Shown here: positions 4,640-54,805 of the stretch, piece by piece
Numbering within the stretch: the first letter of the stretch is position 1
Layout: the number at the start of each line of letters is the position of its first letter
NCBI GenBank assembly: GCA_015178975.1
Contig: WHVD01000060.1
Coordinates: forward strand, 310,001 to 374,000
Direction: 5' to 3'
Source of the DNA: Hysterangium stoloniferum
Lineage: Eukaryota; Basidiomycota; Agaricomycetes; Hysterangiales; Hysterangiaceae
DNA: 64,000 nt
Program-made: the position numbers and the translations under genes
Notes under the pieces: model-generated
Told to the model about the DNA's origin: nothing
The model's input: only the letters and a program-made list of their open reading frames with translations
Database searches by the model: none

Positions 4640-6771
4640 TCAATCTAATAATACATCTTTGTACACTATATTTGCTGTTCTCTTTGTCTCCTTTAATAAT
4701 ATTTTTATCCTATTCCAACTTCTTCCCCTTGAAAGTCCCACATACAATTGCCCATGTCCAAACACTGCCATTCTCAAATCTATTCCCACCACTTTCAAAG
4801 ACTGTCCCTGTGACTTGTTAATTGTCATTGCAAATGCCAACCGCACTGGACACTGAATACGATGCAGTTTAAATGGCAGTTGATCATCATTTGTAATTAT
4901 TTTGATCTGTGAAAGAAATGCCAGTTTCCCAGTACATGGTCCAGTTAGAATCTGCACTTGAAGCAAATGATTTTCCATCTTCACCAGTCACAATCGTGTC
5001 CCATTGAAAAGCCCCTTCTGTGGATCTATGTTCCATAACAGCATCAAAGGTACTTTTGGCTTCACCTCAAGTCGACTTGGTGAGAGGCCACCAAAATTCA
5101 GGCTGTTCAAATACTCTACAGGATACATCTCTGTCTCACTATCTCCCTCTGCAGTATCAGCACTATGGTACACACGACTCTCTCCAGGGAATTTATTCAG
5201 AAGTTCTGAATTAATCTCATCTACTTCTGAATTCCTTGGACACAGAATTGCCCGGTCTAAGAAGTCTTCATCTTGCCAATCTCTTTGGTCTCTATCCACA
5301 TGGATGTCTGGATATATCTCTGCAATTAGATTAGACATTTCTGGACCATAGATCATATGAGGAGGGATATCCATTGTATGATCCAAAGGTAAATCCTTCC
5401 CATGGCTTATATCCAATAGCCACTGAGCAAACTGTTGACTGTCTGGATCATCCTGGTCCACCTGCATATTCTTTTTCAAGAACAGTACCTTAATATGCTT
5501 CTACAGTTCGGATTTCTGGATACATTGTCCAATGATCTGTTCTTTTGAACCCTTTGGTACAACAGGCAAAGTCTGCTGAAAGTCACCTCCCCAGGCAACA
5601 GGAATCCCTCCAAAGGGAAGATCCTCCTTGTCTAATAAATTTCTTAGGGTTCTGTCAACTGCCTCACATGTGAAATGTGACTGCATTGGAACTTCATCCC
5701 AGATAATCAGTCGGGACTTTCTTCATGAGCTCTGCTTTTTCTGAACCCTTTTTGATATGACATAGAGCATCCTTCTCACAGGGAACAGGGATTGAAAATG
5801 TGCTATGAGAAGTGCGACCACCCTTGAGAATCATTGATGCAATTCCAGAAGATGCCACACAAAGCACAATATAGCCTTTGGCATGACATGCATGTGCCAG
5901 AGTATTCCATACAAAGGACTTGCCAGTACCACCTGGACCATTCACAAAAAAACAATTTGCCCTGCTGCTCCTCATCTACTACCTTCATGATAGTCTCAAA
6001 GGCAGCTCGTTGTTCAGGATTGCACTTTTCAAGATTAGCTTGAGCACTGGCATGCTCAATATCAACATCATAAATAATCTGTATATATGGTGCTAACTGC
6101 AAAATTGGTTGCTCCAGTTGAACAGATGCATTTCCCTGTACATGATGCCACCGAGGAGGTTGTAATGGTGGCAAAGCTCTATACTGATGATGTAGGTCAG
6201 CCACTGCATCAGAGCCAATAACTGTAGTAGAGCCACCTCCAGCAGAGCCACCTCCAGCAGAGCCACCTCCAGCAGAGCCACCTCCAGCAGAGCCACCTCC
6301 AGCAGAGCCACCTGCACCAGAGCCACCTGCACTAGAACTACCTGCACCAGAACTACCTGCAGCAGAACCACCTGTAGCAGAACCACCTGTAGCAGAACTA
6401 CCTGTAGCAGAACTACCTGTAGCAGAACTACCTGCAGTAGAACTACCTGCAGTAGAACTACCTGCAGTAGAACTACCTGCAGTAGAACTACCTGCAGTAG
6501 AACTACCTGCAGTAGAACTACCTGCAGTAGAACTACCTGCAGTAGAACTACCTGCAGTAGAACTACCTGCAGTAGAACTACCTGCAGTAGAACTACCTGC
6601 AGTAGAACTACCTATAGCAGAACTACCTATAGCAGAGCCACCTACCAAAAATGGATCATCAGATTGATCTGCACCACCAAGGCAAAATGGGAATGGTTGA
6701 GGAGGTGGTGGTATAACATAATTATGCACAACTAAACGTCGATGGCGGTCAGATGGAGATGTCATTTTCAA
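4640..6771 (-). pseudogene. Helitron-type PIF1-like helicase, broken
   Basis: Pieces in three frames make a PIF1-family helicase. From N to C these are a low-complexity Gly/Ser/Ala tract, a segment ending near 5975, Walker A GPGGTGKS (near 5930), GGDFQQTLPVV with a Q-rich motif III (near 5570-5600), and the C-terminal motif AMTINKSQGQSLK followed by HGQLYVGLSR (near 4740-4830). This C-terminal pattern is typical of the helicase domain of Helitron rolling-circle transposons. Lesions include frameshifts near 5960 and 5700, an in-frame TAG near 5500 at an expected Trp, and TGA near 4990. No Rep/HUH domain was recognised upstream. Confidence 0.8.
6229..6650 (-). repeat. Coding minisatellite, about 29 units of 15 bp (GSSTA-type pentapeptide)
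   Basis: Near-perfect 15-bp units read on the minus strand as GSSTA, GSSAT or GGSAG. Sub-arrays are homogeneous: about twelve identical GSSTA units sit next to five GGSAG units, the pattern left by local slippage. The frame stays open across the whole array although the flanking helicase frame is broken. Confidence 0.9.
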
Positions 6772-46185: not shown

Positions 46186-47612
46186 TGTTAAATATGGTAG
46201 ATGTGAACAAAGAATGTATTATAGATTACTAAGCAACTATACAGTAACACTAAATTTTGTACTTAGTTGGGAAATATAGAAACGAAAGAAAGTGAGATTA
46301 TTTCATGGAATATACTGTATTCTAACATACTCCCTTAATTGAAACTTTCGAAAATGTGTTCCTTAATTTGAATAATGGTACTGTGCTGTATGCTCCCATT
46401 GCATATTCTGGATCATTGCTATATTCGAAATTTTCGCCACTTTCAGCAATATTGGCATTTACAGAATCCTTAGGACTTGGACAGTCATTTTGATAAAATG
46501 ACCACGTCCACCACAGTTGAAGCATGTGACATTTAGTGGTCGCTTAGATATATGGTGATGAGTGGCAAAAAGGGCCTGAACTCCAGTATCATAACTTGCA
46601 GTTGGTAAAATACATACAAGGGGCAAGTTGACATGACTCCTCGTTCAGAAAATGGTTAATAACATACTCAAGGGTGAGTTGTTCTGGTGGTATATAATCC
46701 AAACTGACAACGAACTTGTCATATGATTCGTCAAGGTCATTGGTAAGTACCAGGATCATGTCTTTGTCTTCTGAAATTTTAAGCCAGTGGCAGGGAACAT
46801 CATTGTAGTCAGTTGATGGAGGACTGGTTGTGTGACTGAGGCATCATGAAACATGCTTCACATCAGCAATCCATTGCTGCATACTCTGCATGTCATCTTT
46901 CTTCATGGTTAGAAAATGATGATGAAGAGCAAGACGAGATGCAAATCCACAGGCAATATGGACTTGATGTAGGTTTTCCCAGGATTTAACAGAGTCCTCT
47001 TCATGAAGGTGGGGAAGTTGGTCTGGTTCAACACAGAGGATGATTTCGGATTGCACAAGTTGTTATTTTTTAATAAATGTAGCAAACCAATTTCAAAGAG
47101 GGGGAACCAGGTGGTTGAATTTCCGAACCGTCAATAATACTCCACACATCTTTGTGAGTGAGATATGCTTTCATATAGACACTCCACATACTATAGTTCT
47201 CCTCCCCTAGTTTTTGAAAATAATTCTCCTGGGTGGTGTCAATGTGGAAATATGAATAATGAACCAAAGAAATAAAACAAATAGTCACAGACCCCTTCCT
47301 GCAGGTTAAATATACCGCCCCGGAGCCCTTCCCGTGTGTGTACTGTGGCTTCTATTCCCTTTAATATGGCTGCCTCAAAGAAATTACAATGAGTAACAAC
47401 TCAAAGGAAATGAATGTTGTGCAGTGATGAATTCAAGTGATTATGCTAGTATTCTGCGGGGCCCATAATCTGTTAAATATGGTAGATACAAACAAAGAAT
47501 GTATTATAGATTACTAAGCAACTATACAGCAACACTAAATTTTGTGCTTAGTCGGGAAATATAGAAACTAAAGAAAGCAAGATTATTTCATGGAATATAC
47601 TGTATTCTAACA
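46186..47612 (-). mobile_element. Internally deleted Copia-type LTR element, 1427 bp, TSD AAAGG
   Basis: Two LTRs of 142 bp (46186-46327 and 47471-47612) lie in direct orientation and differ at about seven positions. AAAGG occurs at 46181-46185 and 47613-47617. In the minus orientation the ends are TGTTAGAATAC and ATTTAACA. A polypurine tract AATTAAGGGAGTA abuts the 3' LTR. Only Gag-type sequence lies inside, so it depended on another copy for transposition. Confidence 0.9.
46330..47300 (-). pseudogene. Copia Gag remnant inside the element
   Basis: Begins near 47288 with a Gag/UBN2-like start (FQKLGEENYSMWSVYMKAYL..DVWSIIDG). A helical part follows at 46844-47056, and a zinc knuckle CFNCGGRGHFIK at about 46490-46515. 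The knuckle's last Cys (NDCPSPK) is in another frame, showing a 1-base indel in an A run. No protease, integrase or RT. Confidence 0.7.
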
Positions 47613-47925: not shown

Positions 47926-50900
47926 TTACAATGTTGTCAATAGTCCGTGTCTATCCATTTCCAGTATCAAGGCCCGAATACAATCAGAAGGAATATCACC
48001 CATGAAACGTATCATGAAGGACAAAATACGAGCAACTTCAAGAATGGTATGGCTTACAAAAGCTGGAAAGATTGGCATTCATGCGGCTAGAAGATGAAAG
48101 CACGTACCATCTTTCAAGAGGATTTCAATCAGCGTGCCACGGTGTAGGAGAGGTGGTTCAGGTAGGTAGAAGTGGCACAGTGCAATGAGGACGATCTGCA
48201 GCTTGATGTTGGAAAAGCAGCCTGAAAGACGGTAAAAGGAGTCAATGCTGGATACAATTAAACCATACCATATTTAGAAAAACCTGCAAACAATTTTACA
48301 CCGGATAAAACGAATTCATATTGCTTGGCAGCAACGAGGGATGCACAGTGATGTTCTAGGTTACAACGAGCAATTGGATCACGAAAGCAATCTTTGAAAA
48401 CATGGCTAAGAAGAAACTGTTGACTTGCGTCTCAAGACACGCACCGTGTGCTGCCAGATTGACGAGCAAGTCTACAACATCACTTGCATTGTATGGCTGT
48501 ATATCCTCCAAAAGTTTAACAATACTAGGAATAGCCCGCGTAATGGCAGATCTAAATTCAGCTATGGTCAAATGTCAGCTGGATTCCGATTCGATTATGT
48601 GGCACTGAACCTTGGGCTGAAAGCCTCCCCAGGGCCGATGAAACCTTTGGCCGATCATAGCACCAAGGGTCCTTCAAAAGTGCAACAATGTCGGGGATAA
48701 CACGCGACACGGCAGCTTGAAATTCGGCTGAGGACAATGTCACTCGGAGTCCCATCCCTTGATAATGCACCGCACCTTGCTCTGAAAGCTTGGCCAGGGC
48801 GAATACTCCATTTGATCGAACAATGGCAGAAGCGTCCTTCAAAAGTACAACAATGTCGGGGATGGCGCTCAAAATGGCAGGCCGAAATTCGGCTATGATC
48901 AAATGTCAGCTAGATTGCCATCCCATTATGAGGCATCGCACCTTGCTCGGAAAACTTGGCCAGGGCCGATGCTGCGCTTGAACGAAGAAAGTCGTCAGTG
49001 TCCTTCAAAAGTGCAACAATGTCAGGGATGGCAGTCGAAATGGCAGGCCGAGATGCGGCTGTGATCAAATGTCAGCAAGATTACCGTCCCAATATGAGGC
49101 ACTGCACTTTGCTCTGAAAGCTTGGCCAGGGCCGATACTCCGTTTGATCGAACAAAGGGCTCAGTGACCTTCAAATGTGCAACAATGTCGGAAATGAGAC
49201 CCGAAATGGCGGCCCGAAATTCAGCTGTGATAAATGTCAGCTGTGTTCTCATCCCATTCTCGAGGCACCGCACCATATTCTGAAAGCTTGGCCAGTGCTG
49301 ATCCAATACTTGATTCACCCCATGGGTCACGGTCTCGCAAAAGTATGACAATGTCGGGTATAGCATCCACAATGGCAGGTCGAAATTCGGCTGGGGTCAA
49401 ATGTCAGCTGGGTTCCCATCCCATTTTGATGCAAAGCACCTTGCTCTGAAAGCTTAGCCAGGGCTGATGCTGCGTTTAAACGGACAAAGACCTGAGTGTT
49501 CTTCAACAGTGCAACGATGTCAGGAATGGCACGCGACACGGGAGCTCGAAATTCGGCTAGGGTCAAATGTCAGTCGGATTCCCATCCCATTATGGTGCAA
49601 CGCACATTGCTCTGAAAGCTTGGCCAGGGCCGATGCTGCATTTGAACGAACAAAGTCGTCAGTGTCCTTCAAAAGTGCAACAATGTCGGGAATAGCATTC
49701 GAAATAGCAGGCCGAAATTCGGCTGTGAGCAAATGTCAACAATGTTCCCATCCCATTATGAGGCACTTCACAATGTTTTGAAAGTTTTGCCAGGGCTGAT
49801 ACGATATTTGATCGAGTATAGGACCTAGAGTCCTTCAAAAGTGGAGCCATGGCGGGAATGGCACCCAAAATGGCACCGCGAAATTCGGCTGTGGTTAAAT
49901 GTCAACTGGATTTCCAACCCGTTTATGATGCACCCCACCTTGCTCTAGAAGCTTGTCCAGGGCTAATACTGCGTTTGATCCAAGGGAGAGGTAGTGGTCC
50001 TTCAAAAGTGCAACAATGCCGGGAACGGCCCCCGAAATGGCAACTCGGAATTCGGCTGTGACCAATTGTCAGCTGGATTCCCATCTCATTCAGAGACACC
50101 CCACCTTGTTCTGAAAGCTTGGCTAGGGCCGATACTCCCTGGGACCGAACGGAGTCATCAGACTCTTTCAAAAGTATGACAATGTCAGGAATGAAACCGG
50201 CAATGGCGGTTCGAAATTTCTCTGGAAACCCATCAATTATGGCAGTCTGCAAAATGTCGGCACACTTACCAAACACATGGAGAGTCATCACCGCCTGTCC
50301 GAGAGCCAATTTTCCTTCACGCACTGTGAGATTGAAGGTTGGTAAGGTGAGGCCAAAATTGTGAGCTTTCAAGTAGTTTGGACATTGGGAAATGAACAAT
50401 ATACGAAATAACATATGAGGGCTCTTTACGTACATGCCATCATTATGTGTTGAAGGATCTTGATACCTTCATGACGCCAAATGCTGTGAGTACTCTGTAA
50501 AAGATCTATAGTCGACCAGAGACGGCTCGTCGCGAATTGGGAGATGTGGTGTGTGTCGGGCTTATTGACTAGATCGCTGTTATATGTATGAGTATGGGGT
50601 GGAGCAGAAGGGGGGATAGTCAAGCTTCGGAGTGGAGTTGAAGGGGGATTGTGCGGCGATGGCCGCATGTTGTCAGACAAACCTACAGCACCAAGTATGT
50701 GACCCCTGACAAGAGGGAGGAACTTCGCTATGGAGACTTAAGAAAAATGCTTCAAGAAGAATTATTGGACTACCTTTCTCAGATAACTTAGCAAGCAGAA
50801 ATGCTGCGCTTGGGCGAACGGGGGCATAAGGGTACTTCAAAAGCGCAACAATGTCAGGAATGGCACGCTCTATAGCAATTTGACATAGCGCTGTGTTCAT

Positions 50901-52757
50901 ATTTCAGCTGGATTCACAACTCATTATTGAGGCACCGCACATTGCTCTGAAAGCTTGGCCAGGACCGATACTGCGTTTGATCGACCGTGGGGGGAATAGT
51001 CCTTCAAATGTGCAACAATTGCGGGAATGGCATCCAAAATGGCAGGTCGGAATTCGTCTGGTAAAATGTTAGCTAGATTCCCATCCCACTGTGACGCATC
51101 CCACCTTGCTCTGACAGTCTGGCTAGGGCCGATACTCCATCTGACCCAGTGGATTCGACCCTTTCTCCTAAAAGTGCAACGATATCAGGAATTGCATCCA
51201 CAATGCCAATTCGAAATTCGGCCGTGGTCGAAAGGACAGTCCGAAATTCGACTGTGGCCAAATGTCACTTGGATTCCCATCCCATTATGTGGGACCGTAC
51301 CTTGCTCTGAAAGCTTCGCCGTGGCAGATGCTGTGTTTGACCGAACAGAGAACCTAGAGTCCGTCAAAAGTGCAGCAATGTCGGAAATCGCACTTGAAAT
51401 GGCAGCTCGAAAGTCGGCTGTCACAATTTCAGCTAGGTTCTCATCCCAATATGGGGCACCGCACCTTGTTCCGAAAGCTTGGCCAGTGCCGATACACCAT
51501 TTGAACGAACATCTTCGTGGGAGTCTTTCAAAAGTATGACAATGTCGGGCATGGCATCCACAATGGCAGGTCGAAATGTGGCTGGCGTCAAATGTCAGCT
51601 GGGCTCCCATCCAATTATGAGGCACCGCACCTTGTTCCGAAAGCTTGGCCAGTGCTGATACACAGTTTGATCGAACGGATGCGTCGGAGTCTTTCAACAA
51701 TATGAAAATGTCGGGTACGGCATCGACAATGGCAGGTCGAATTTCGGCTGGGGTCAAATGTCAGCTGGGTTCCCATCCCATGAGGAGGCGCTGCCACCTT
51801 GCTTGGAAAGCTTGGCTAGTGCTGATACACTATTTGATTGAACTTGTTTGTTAGTGTCTTTTAAAAGTGTAACAATGTTGGGAATGGCATCAGCAATGGC
51901 AGGCCGGAACTCGGCTGTGTTTAAATGTGAGTGGGGTTCCCATCCCTTTATGAGGTACCGTACTCTGCTCTGAAAACTTGGCTAAGGTCGATACTGCATT
52001 GAACGGAACAGTGTAGCCAGTGTCCTTCAAAAGTGCGACAATGTCGGGAATGGCACGCGAAAGGGCAACTCGAAATTCAGCTGTGATTAAATGTCAGCTA
52101 CGTTCACATCTTATCATGGGGCACCGCACCTGGTTCTGACAGCTCTGTCAAGGCCGACAATCCGTTTAAACGAACCAACTTGTCAGTGTCCTTCAAAAGT
52201 GCAACAATGTTGGGAATGACATCAGCAATCGCAGGTCGGAATTCCGCTGTGGCCACATGTCAGCTGGGTTCCCATCCCATTATGAGGCACTGCACCCTGC
52301 TCTGAAAACTTGGCCAGGGTCGATACTGCCTTTGAACCAACCCAGTCCTCCTTCAAAAGTGCAACAATGTCAGGAATGGTACGCGAAATGGCAACTCGAA
52401 ATTCGGCTGTGGTGAAATGTTAGCCAGGTTCCCATCTTATTATGAGGCACCGCACCTTGTTCTGAAAGTTTCGCCAGGGCAGTCACTCCGGTTGAACGAA
52501 CCCCGCTGTTAGTGTCCTTCAAAAGGGCAGCGATGTCCACAATGGCACCCGAAATCGCAACTCGAAATTCGACTGTGATCAAATCTCAGCAAGATTACCA
52601 TCCTATTACGAGACACCGAACCTCGTTCTGAAAGCTTCGCCAAGGCCGATGCTCCGTTATATCGAACGGTGTTGTCAGAGTCCTTCAAAAGTCCAAGAAT
52701 GTGGGGAATGGCCCCACAAATACCAGTTGGGAAATTCGCTGAAAACCGCTGCATATT
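47926..52757 (-). CDS. HEAT-repeat array protein: about 23 one-repeat exons
   Basis: Units such as CCGAATTTCG..GACATTGTTGC..CTGGCCAAGCTTTC recur about every 166 bp: 12 units from 52757 to about 50850, then 11 from about 50220 to 48440. Each exon (about 117 nt) encodes one ~39-residue HEAT-like repeat, IPDIVALLKDx4VRSxxxSALAKLSEQG. Introns of about 49 nt have GTGC starts, CTGAC branch-like sites and CAG or TAG ends. A Pro-rich linker (50440-50690, LSDNMRPSPHNPPSTP) separates the blocks. The C-terminus (CNLEHHCASLVAAKQYEFVL..LLHRGTLIEILLKDG..DRHGLLTTL) ends at TAA 47926. HEAT arrays form curved protein-binding scaffolds; the ligand is unknown. Probably one gene with the DUF6535 module upstream; individual exon ends were not all checked. 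Confidence 0.75.
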
Positions 52758-52995
52758 ATATCAAACTCCTTTTCCACTTCGCATACTCTTACCACATTTC
52801 ACCAGTAATAGTTCTCCGGGATCAGTTGTATTTTGAAAGCGGTTGGTCCTACATTGTGCTAGTCTCTTTATCCATTCGTTTCCTTTTCCGGTCGTGCCAA
52901 TACGTTAGCTAAGTGTATTTGCGTTCATGTAAGGAGGACAGTTCACCTGCTATAACACCCTTCCCTCCCAGCATTCTCTGGCAATCCTCTGTTCA

Positions 52996-54805
52996 TCAAT
53001 TAGTTTGTTTCCTGTAGCCATGACAAATGGCCTTACGAAGATGCCAATATGCCAATATTACCTCTTCGCAGCGTGCACGTAGGTCCTCTTTCTCTGACAA
53101 TGCTCCATCAATAGCAGCCATCATCAATGTCTGTCGCTCGTAAGGTGTTGCACCCAGAGTGATCAGAGTTTCGATGTCTGAGTATGTCGACACCCCTAGG
53201 TTACCCTCATCCAGGTTTACCTTAATACCAATAAGTACCGCCAACCCTAATGTCCTGAGGCAAGGCTCTAAGCTGTCCAACCGATGTAAGGGTCTCCCTA
53301 CGTGTATCAGGGTTTTGAAGGGGGTAAGGTACCCTGCATCTATCGGTCTGCCTGTTCGCGGCGACAGGAATCGTGACATTGCAAGGAGAGAAACTTCGGC
53401 AAGCTCTGCATCACGTACGGTGACCACGCCAGCGGTAACGTGAAAACAACTTTCAAATATTTTGCATAATTTTTCCGTTACGCCTCGTTGGCACAAAGCA
53501 ATTCGCAACTGTTCACATGGTTTCGCACCTGCTACAGCCCTCAGTGCCTCCTGAACTGCCTCCTCCGACATAGATCTTTCAATCACCCATGCCAGGACAT
53601 CAGCTTCAAGTTCGGCCCGTTGAGGCTTGCGTTGTGCTTCGACCAAGAACCGAGAGAGGCTTTTTAGCCATTCGGAAATTCTAGATGTATGTGCCCATGT
53701 CGATGAAACAGGACCAGGATCGTCTGATCCGGACGTCCCATACTTTGCGCCTGCAGAGACGACCGGGAAGAAGCGTGACATTGTTGTCTGAAAGGGACAG
53801 GCGGGTGAAAACAAGGGAAATAACGTGCCGAGTATATATAGCGCGATCCCGCATCCGGTCAAAAAAAGCATAACCACGCCTAAAGCTACGCTGCTATCCC
53901 AGGTGAATAAGACGAGACCTGCAGAAAAAAGAAAGAGAGCTAGTTGGATCAAAAGCGGGATGCCAGTAACAACTGACTCGAGGCGCCACTGCTGCGCTCT
54001 CTTAACACGAAGGAGACGTTCACATGCATCACTTGAGCGACTTCCTGGCGATACAGGAATATACTTCGCTAGCCATTCCCTTGCAAGTACAGCACAAAGT
54101 GCACTGAAGAGGGTCAGACCGAGACTACCGAACCATAAATAGTTAACAATAAGGGAAGATCTGGAGACTTCAAAAGACGGAGAGGTCGTCGCAGCGAACT
54201 GATTTTGGAGTGTGTGAAGGATTTCCTGAAGAGGATCTACCTGCAAATCCTTCCTACTTTCGATCAGGAAAGCGGTAAGAATCCCTCCAAACAATCCTGC
54301 CTGAGAAACTGTGAATTGAATTTCACATCAAAGGAGAATGAATTCAGTTTACAAATATGAGAAGCTCGTCGATACCAACTTGCAATGAATTGGCAAGTTC
54401 TTTGTCCTCTTTTTCGGCTTCCCTTAGATATAACGACCATATGGTTGAATCCGATTGAAAGTGTTTGGAATAGGGGTTGCCTTCCTCGCCATCTAGGCCA
54501 TTACCGCCACCGGATGCCGCCTTGGTTGGGGTTGAGGGAACTGTGGTAGGCCGCAGCGAAGGTTCACGATTGGTCGTTCCTGATGTTTCCGCTTGCGTTC
54601 AGTTTAGAAACAGCGTAAAATCTGATATAATACCTGCGGCAACTGGGATCTGTGATTCAGCGGAGCTACGGTCTCCTGCATACTGCGAAGACATCAGTTT
54701 GACTTAGGGTCAGTTGGGCGCTTCAAATACGAAGCTCGACAGGAGCGGGACCCATACCATAGCCGTAAGTAGCTTTCCCACAGTCTCAAGCCGCTTCGAC
54801 CCCAT
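52996..54805 (-). CDS. DUF6535 membrane module, N-terminal part of the HEAT-array gene
   Basis: ATG at 54805. Short exons splice to a region with LREAEKEDKELANSLQVGIDELLIF, then after an intron (about 54304-54355) AGLFGGILTAFLIES, the hallmark of the fungal DUF6535 domain. Four membrane spans are visible: GILTAFLIES, YLWFGSLGLTLFSALCAVLA, LLIQLALFLFSAGLVLF and VVMLFLTGCGIALYILGTLF (54300 to about 53810). A soluble helical region of about 250 residues follows to ARCEE at 53064. Two ends are possible: a 36-50-bp intron to a nearby stop at 52996, or a ~306-bp intron that joins in frame to the first HEAT exon at 52757. I favour the join, but cannot prove it. A broken copy lies at 59120-59606. Confidence 0.75.

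Follow-up and report, generated by a model that had tools for sequence, protein, structure and literature searches.

A candidate membrane-anchored HEAT-repeat recognition protein of Hysterangium stoloniferum, built of one-exon repeats with three hypervariable residues

Analysis of a 64,000-nucleotide stretch of the Hysterangium stoloniferum genome (contig WHVD01000060.1; C512:310001-374000 in the 111 Mb and 554 contigs searched here; hereafter the window) revealed that the tandem HEAT repeats belong to a single minus-strand gene, which in a hand-built model runs from 54694 to 47926. The gene seems intact and is one of many in a large fungal family, and we put at roughly 60% the probability that it encodes a membrane-anchored alpha-solenoid recognition protein within a diversifying family of such genes. 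The membrane location, the solenoid geometry, ligand binding and the role in nonself recognition are predictions made from sequence. An earlier reading of the same DNA (hereafter the original prediction) had proposed nonself recognition from architecture; diversification concentrated at residues 22-24 of the HEAT unit now lends that idea independent support, the role itself remaining putative.

The predicted protein has, towards its N-terminus, a DUF6535 domain that includes about four hydrophobic segments. Two runs of HEAT units follow, encoded by 12 and then 11 exons and separated by a linker of two exons, and a C-terminal domain comes last. Over the window these parts are distributed as follows (nt, nucleotides):

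47926..54694, minus strand: whole gene model; 33 exons and 32 introns, all GT...AG, with a 1,720-residue open frame whose sole stop is terminal.
54353..54694, minus strand: exons 1-2, carrying the start codon (54694-54692), an N-terminal tail and the first part of DUF6535; the start region is similar in relatives.
53037..54300, minus strand: exon 3; remainder of DUF6535 (PF20153), the hydrophobic segments and a further uncharacterised stretch (Pfam match, hydropathy).
52793..52988, minus strand: exons 4-5; a short stretch leading into HEAT unit 1, arranged similarly in the paralogous loci L019, L020 and L022 (by eye).
50774..52738, minus strand: HEAT array 1; 12 single-unit exons, of which ten measure 117 nt and the other two 111 and 147 nt, with introns of 46-50 nt (alignment, Pfam HEAT families).
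50270..50727, minus strand: linker; two non-HEAT exons of 294 and 96 nt (50727-50434 and 50365-50270) between units 12 and 13, recurring in the family.
48445..50221, minus strand: HEAT array 2; 11 single-unit exons, all of 117 nt, the second half of the last one diverged (alignment).
47926..48391, minus strand: exons 31-33; C-terminal domain without Pfam match, and stop codon (47928-47926).
48491..52676, minus strand: hypervariable triplet, unit residues 22-24 (9 nt, positions 63-71 of the 117-nt exon), lying at 52676-52668 in unit 1 and at 48499-48491 in unit 23.

The borders of the HEAT exons were set by wraparound alignment to the unit; all other junctions were picked by frame, by the look of the splice sites and by comparing relatives by eye, and because they were chosen partly by frame, the open frame outside the HEAT exons is not independent evidence. 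The count of about 23 one-exon HEAT repeats given in the original prediction was borne out (12 + 11 = 23 on the minus strand). The continuous array that it placed at 48440..52757 was not, as the two linker exons lie between units 12 and 13, the array closes with unit 23 at 48445 and the gene model continues to 47926. The four-pass DUF6535 module reported upstream was recovered within the same gene: PF20153 matches protein residues 68-230 (E 1.6e-44, 152.3 bits against a curated cut-off of 23.9), and the Kyte-Doolittle score places about four hydrophobic segments near residues 93-111, 151-169, 210-228 and 234-252. Six units of array 2 match PF02985 and PF13646 with 66.6 and 59.8 bits, and units 2-12 together with the linker and the start of array 2 match them with 94.0 and 102.1 bits (cut-offs 23.5 and 27.7, respectively); the Pfam model PF20153 does not extend to the HEAT arrays fused to the domain here. 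The first linker exon and the C-terminal domain, each scanned alone, gave no Pfam match. Neither NACHT nor NB-ARC is among the Pfam families listed for three pieces jointly covering the whole protein (25 of 27 in one of the scans), and by the domain that defines the group the protein is not a NOD-like receptor (NLR). In a profile search, HeLo/HELL domains were not among the matches of residues 1-600 at E 0.01. The hydrophobic part of exon 3 (window 53038-54300, minus strand) also carries a sub-threshold match to HlyIII, a haemolysin-III related family (E 0.026, 14.7 bits, cut-off 26.2).

The repeat unit comprises exon and intron together. Tandem Repeats Finder identified 166-bp arrays at 48528-50218 and 51242-52712, in agreement with the predicted 166-bp period of a 117 + 49 unit. 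The further claim that exons are multiples of three in one phase holds for all 23 HEAT exons, which are flanked by introns in phase 1-1; the exact length of 117 nt holds for 21 of them, the others measuring 111 and 147 nt. Introns following these exons are 46-53 nt long. Stop-containing exons, which the original prediction had named, together with a constant repeat number, as a sign against it, are absent (0 of 23). The near-identical introns that it described were not found in the window gene, where mean pairwise identity among 22 scored units is 0.742 for introns (0.57-0.88) and 0.695 for exons; mean DNA identity between units is 71%, so near-identity of these units was rejected, and near-identical units occur in relatives instead.

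The same design was followed across the genome. A 361-base query taken from the end of the array gave 409 genome matches, and a search with the unit protein gave 1,837 candidates at first look, 150 of which went on to scoring. Twenty stretches of 10 kb (loci) were picked from the search hits, and their units were aligned to a profile of 166 positions derived from 306 strict units, yielding 540 rows, linker rows and partial units included. The coding test used the 441 exons from 19 loci that passed a full-length and score filter, with L010, a near-copy of the window gene, left out. All but one of these exons (440/441) are multiples of three; 421 are exactly 117 nt long, and 19 of the remaining 20 differ by whole codons. 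In the predicted frame 440/441 exons are free of stops; in the remaining sense frames only 27 and 73 are. The frame and stop exceptions are a single exon of L015 and a single exon of L026. Of the antisense frames, one is open in 301/441 exons, from which no inference is drawn. Introns are divisible by three in only 31/441 cases, and 428/441 have GT/GC...AG ends. The openness of the sense frame and the whole-codon differences in length, beside introns that are rarely multiples of three, argue that the repeat pattern is not due to chance; judged from evolution alone, the HEAT units appear to be coding and spliced. In L018 (minus strand, 5478-5730), a HEAT exon contains an in-frame expansion rich in alanine, isoleucine and proline, which is covered by a self-match at an offset of 42 bp.

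The family is large. Pfam matches to DUF6535 occur at 75 places in the genome, some of them parts of one gene, and the first linker exon has 70 matches. For pairing, 65 of the 75 DUF6535 places (the last ten rows left out) and 64 of the 70 linkers (five weak ones and one second piece left out) were used, and a linker was found 1.5-5.4 kb downstream on the same strand at 45/65 DUF6535 places. Conversely, 20/64 linkers lack a DUF6535 partner; five of these (L033-L037) look by eye like truncated copies, with no DUF6535 or recognisable domain in their frames. Strictly scored exons number 18-34 in each of the 17 loci L012-L028 (L028 without a linker row); the window gene has 21 of them, L010 has 18 and L011 has 7. 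The strict filter misses one or two units per gene, and the true count for the window gene is 23. Locus L010 (C512:393700-403699), about 38.5 kb from the window gene, is a 98.55% identical partial copy over 5,035 bp with 5 gap positions; it has no adjoining DUF6535 match and carries a 116-nt exon and stops. A 99% copy at C512:396951, considered as a case of length change, was rejected, being this same partial copy with no DUF6535 beside it. At C13:642000-646200 (L032) lies the relic of a HEAT array, interrupted by stops and other sequence, in which the introns can still be recognised. Phage records searched with a two-unit protein gave no match, and none of 24 pattern hits of the DUF6535 exon in viral contigs was confirmed.

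Variation within the HEAT unit is concentrated at three adjacent residues. Across 399 units, entropy is highest at residues 23 and 24 (3.44 and 3.31 bits), followed by residues 28 and 22 (2.42 and 2.32 bits). Two clades of eight loci each were distinguished, one containing the window gene (the window clade) and a second clade, and in both of them residues 22-24 have the highest replacement rate of the 39 positions (409 and 586 same-place unit pairs, triplet masked). The triplet takes 168 distinct forms in 400 units, against 26-81 for 12 other triplets; 18 of the 19 triplets counted in the window gene are distinct, and L019 has 9 kinds in 32 units. Phenylalanine, tyrosine and tryptophan together account for 28.2% of the amino acids at residues 23-24 and for 3.6% of those outside the triplet.

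The intron carried by each unit allowed this variation to be set against a local reference. A first pairing of units used introns and an identity cut, which lowered intron divergence, and was redone with an exon-only alignment, the triplet masked and no cut; in the window clade the redone set covers five of the eight genes (ten pairs), L016-L018, whose arrays are not one-to-one, being left out. In this clade, intron divergence was 0.119, synonymous divergence (dS) 0.104, nonsynonymous divergence (dN) outside the triplet 0.094 and triplet dN 0.262, that is, a triplet dN to intron ratio of 2.21 (jackknife by gene, standard error 0.19), and the DUF6535 exon gave dS 0.137 and dN 0.049. The second clade (eight genes, 28 pairs) gave corresponding values of 0.102, 0.099, 0.083 and 0.362, with a ratio of 3.55 (jackknife standard error 0.51) and a DUF6535 exon dS of 0.129. 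Twelve other triplets taken through the same pipeline had dN to intron ratios of at most 1.16 in the window clade and 1.94 in the second. In the first-pairing set, triplet divergence exceeded intron divergence in 28/28 gene pairs of each clade. By counting methods rather than a likelihood site model, these data point to diversifying selection at the fixed repeat positions 22-24, with a separation from a mutational hotspot that is weaker in the second clade.

Comparison with solved structures suggests where the triplet would lie. A sequence search retrieved first the synthetic fusion protein 9sah (E 5.3e-19) and then named alphaRep proteins, artificial HEAT repeats with a shorter unit of 31 residues. 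Residues 23, 24, 27, 28, 31 and 35 of the present unit align with columns that differ between the 9sah repeats, and, matched by spacing, would correspond to positions 18, 19, 22, 23, 26 and 30, which are the variable positions of alphaRep proteins (PMC3754942). Two of the latter, A3 and bA3-2, bind each other by their concave faces (PMC3754942). Of the six matched positions, three (23, 24 and 28) vary in both clades and one more (35) varies in the second clade, so that the triplet probably lies, by analogy, on or beside a binding face.

The two clades differ in the way their arrays evolve. In the window clade, units within a gene are about 70% alike and mostly find their best matches in similarly placed units of sister genes; in the window gene itself, 21/22 units match another locus best, and each of seven paralogues can be aligned, in unchanged order, with 15-21 of the 22 units scored. 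In the second clade, units within a gene are 79-88% alike at the DNA level, and among comparable units the best match lies in the same gene for 30/34 in L019 and 22/28 in L025, while most units of L023, L026 and L021 match other genes best. Internal duplications were sought by direct counting of repeated 166-bp windows with at most three mismatches, as self-BLAST missed known identical units. Such windows are present in 9/20 loci, mostly at offsets of about whole units: seven of the eight second-clade loci, L028 and L016, the last being one short case in the window clade. The longest duplication, in L019, covers 660 bp, has 6 mismatches and is offset by five units. In the pair L022 and L026, the DUF6535 exons differ by 0.019 at synonymous sites, with 27 and 24 scored units, respectively, and an intron difference of 0.109, which suggests either that array turnover outpaces change in the anchor or that the anchor exon was recently converted.

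Several observations weigh against a recognition protein under selection at the triplet. The ratio of 1.94 in the second clade belongs to residues 34-36, and in that clade single-base codon differences in the first-pairing set give a nonsynonymous to synonymous ratio of 1.21 in the triplet against 0.86 elsewhere, with silent change of 0.038 against 0.024; synonymous change as a whole reaches 0.358 in the triplet against 0.099 elsewhere. Part of the second-clade signal may therefore reflect older triplets kept during homogenisation of the rest of the unit, or a mutational hotspot. Outside the triplet, the HEAT units are only weakly constrained (dN to intron ratio 0.79-0.81), in contrast to DUF6535 (dN/dS 0.36-0.40). 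The unit pairs share history and are not independent, the distances are uncorrected counts and the alignment was forced to be collinear. On the repeat, residues 27 and 31 are fairly conserved and residue 22 falls outside the six alphaRep positions, and a single-sequence fold model of exon 3 alone was too poor to use (mean predicted local distance difference test score, pLDDT, 45.6), leaving no usable protein model. Finally, no 166-bp window is repeated at three or fewer mismatches in the window gene, indicating no recent unit turnover there; the original prediction of length change by unequal crossing over thus finds support in relatives, where paralogues differ in unit number and whole units are duplicated, and none in the recent history of the window gene.

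Against this background, the same data could be explained by a membrane-anchored HEAT scaffold of ordinary role, in which the loop between helices A and B is simply free to vary. Residues 22-24 of the HEAT motif lie between the two helices, where loops tolerate change, and the weak constraint on the rest of the unit fits such a view. Relaxed constraint, however, lifts dN to the neutral level and not above it, whereas triplet dN is about 2.2 and 3.6 times intron divergence in the two clades; the other triplets stay at or below the values given above, and the share of aromatic residues at positions 23-24 is raised about eightfold. We consider this explanation unlikely. Somewhat less likely still is a local hotspot of mutation or recombination at the triplet, acting in place of selection, which draws on the raised synonymous change of the second clade. 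In the window clade (eight genes, first-pairing set), silent single-base change is not raised in the triplet (43/2070, 0.021, against 1142/34830, 0.033, elsewhere), whereas nonsynonymous single-base change is (0.049 against 0.025), the ratio of nonsynonymous to synonymous differences being 2.38 in the triplet and 0.77 elsewhere; in the second clade the synonymous count is blurred by the many codons that differ by two or three bases.

The remaining alternatives concern the exon and intron design. Exon skipping, giving many protein lengths from one gene in the manner of cassette exons, would keep the frame, since all 23 HEAT exons are in phase 1-1; nothing examined speaks for regulated skipping, and we regard it as very improbable. 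Separate gain of the introns, as introner-like elements inserted into a pre-existing HEAT array, is suggested by the 20-base 3' end of the intron, which matches 828 places at one mismatch or fewer (reversed control, 0); exon and intron nevertheless repeat in one register with similar information content, and among the first matches listed, remnants of HEAT exons lie beside the intron in 4/4 regions fetched around hits outside known genes, so that there is little to recommend this origin. Decayed or satellite-like repeat DNA, or an assembly artefact, is no more credible: broken copies do exist (L010, one exon each in L015 and L026, and the relic array on C13), but the window gene is open over its entire length, as are 440/441 filtered exons, and units that are about 70% alike make assembly collapse or over-expansion unlikely here.

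If the protein is indeed a recognition receptor, its working could be pictured as follows. The N-terminal DUF6535 domain would sit in the membrane and anchor the HEAT solenoid, and the two arrays joined by the linker would form a long curved surface with one small variable patch per repeat on its inner face. Residues 22-24, together with 28 and, in one clade, 34-36, would lie on or beside the binding face and be driven to change by a changing partner. Recombination at matching repeat positions, within or between genes, would add, drop or swap units, and the order of patches would be remade by such duplication, loss and exchange; because one repeat is one exon and the introns are in phase 1-1, gain, loss or swapping of units keeps the frame. 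More tentatively, and at somewhat less than even odds, these genes may constitute undescribed fungal recognition receptors without a nucleotide-binding domain, in which DUF6535 anchors some 20-35 HEAT units, each contributing a three-residue patch as one contact of a modular surface, with one intron-bearing exon per unit allowing in-frame exchange.

Fungal immunity and allorecognition have been described mainly through NLRs and HET-domain genes (PMC10197012), and the word HEAT does not occur in the main text of that review. Our search of open-licence papers in PubMed Central (PMC) found no description of a DUF6535-HEAT family; no function for DUF6535 was found in print there, Pfam gives none, and the domain was named in one paper, as a row in a table of down-regulated Flammulina genes. 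The original prediction that no system of this exact design has been described agrees with these results as far as the combination is concerned, and Tetrahymena, Cryptococcus and Podospora genes each share one side of it. The HNWD NLRs of Podospora (het-d, het-e and het-r) are likewise large fungal repeat proteins with concerted evolution and repeat-number change, and show hypervariable codons under diversifying selection within otherwise conserved repeats, there of the WD40 type (PMC4986451, PMC12222747). Positive selection was reported also for ankyrin (ANK) and tetratricopeptide (TPR) repeats, and HEAT is among the repeats of the P. anserina gene set (PMC4986451). Unlike NLRs, the window protein has DUF6535 and hydrophobic segments in place of a NACHT or NB-ARC match, and its gene has an intron in every unit, the word intron being absent from the text of both Podospora papers (PMC4986451, PMC12222747). 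Internal repeat conservation is high in those NLRs, in contrast to the 71% of the window gene, with the second clade at 79-88%.

The closest likeness in exon design is found in Tetrahymena, whose leucine-rich repeat (LRR) genes have some 72,000 90-bp exons, with phase 2 introns on either side of more than 96% of them (PMC6564038). Both systems have long arrays, one exon length, one symmetric intron phase and an expanded family, and unequal crossing over was proposed there as well; they differ in that the ciliate exons encode LRRs in 90 nt and phase 2, whereas the fungal exons, of 117 nt and phase 1, each encode a whole HEAT repeat (PMC6564038). Writing in 2019, the authors were unaware of such uniform exon/intron features in other eukaryotes (PMC6564038). 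In the basidiomycete Cryptococcus, CNN00420 also has a tandem repeat that includes a whole intron, with a copy number that varies among strains, although that repeat, of about 107 nt, consists of exon ends and one intron, and the words HEAT and domain are absent from the text, and no family or selection signal was noted for the gene (PMC2395259). The alphaRep proteins resemble the present units in being HEAT repeats variable at positions aligned to window residues 23, 24, 28 and 35, and differ in being artificial and in having six variable positions, two of which (window 27 and 31) are conserved here (PMC3754942). If the proposed reading is correct, the family would stand beside the Tetrahymena LRR genes as a second and independent example of unit exons of striking uniformity, built on a different fold. 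It would also add to NLRs and HET-domain genes a separate receptor design: a large family whose members probably have a membrane anchor, lack a nucleotide-binding domain and are under selection on what is probably the binding face. The intron in every unit serves as a neutral yardstick beside each patch, making the diversification of recognition repeats directly measurable.

Two other features were observed in the window. Just beyond the 3' end of the gene, a 142-bp direct repeat (46186-46327 and 47471-47612, 94% alike) flanks minus-strand frames that, by eye, we take to be copia-type gag pieces, and the pair probably represents a short long terminal repeat (LTR) element. At 5803-6771 on the minus strand, an open frame of 322 amino acids contains about 27 copies of a 15-bp repeat (A-G-S-S-T type), and its end resembles, by eye, the start of a PIF1/Helitron helicase.

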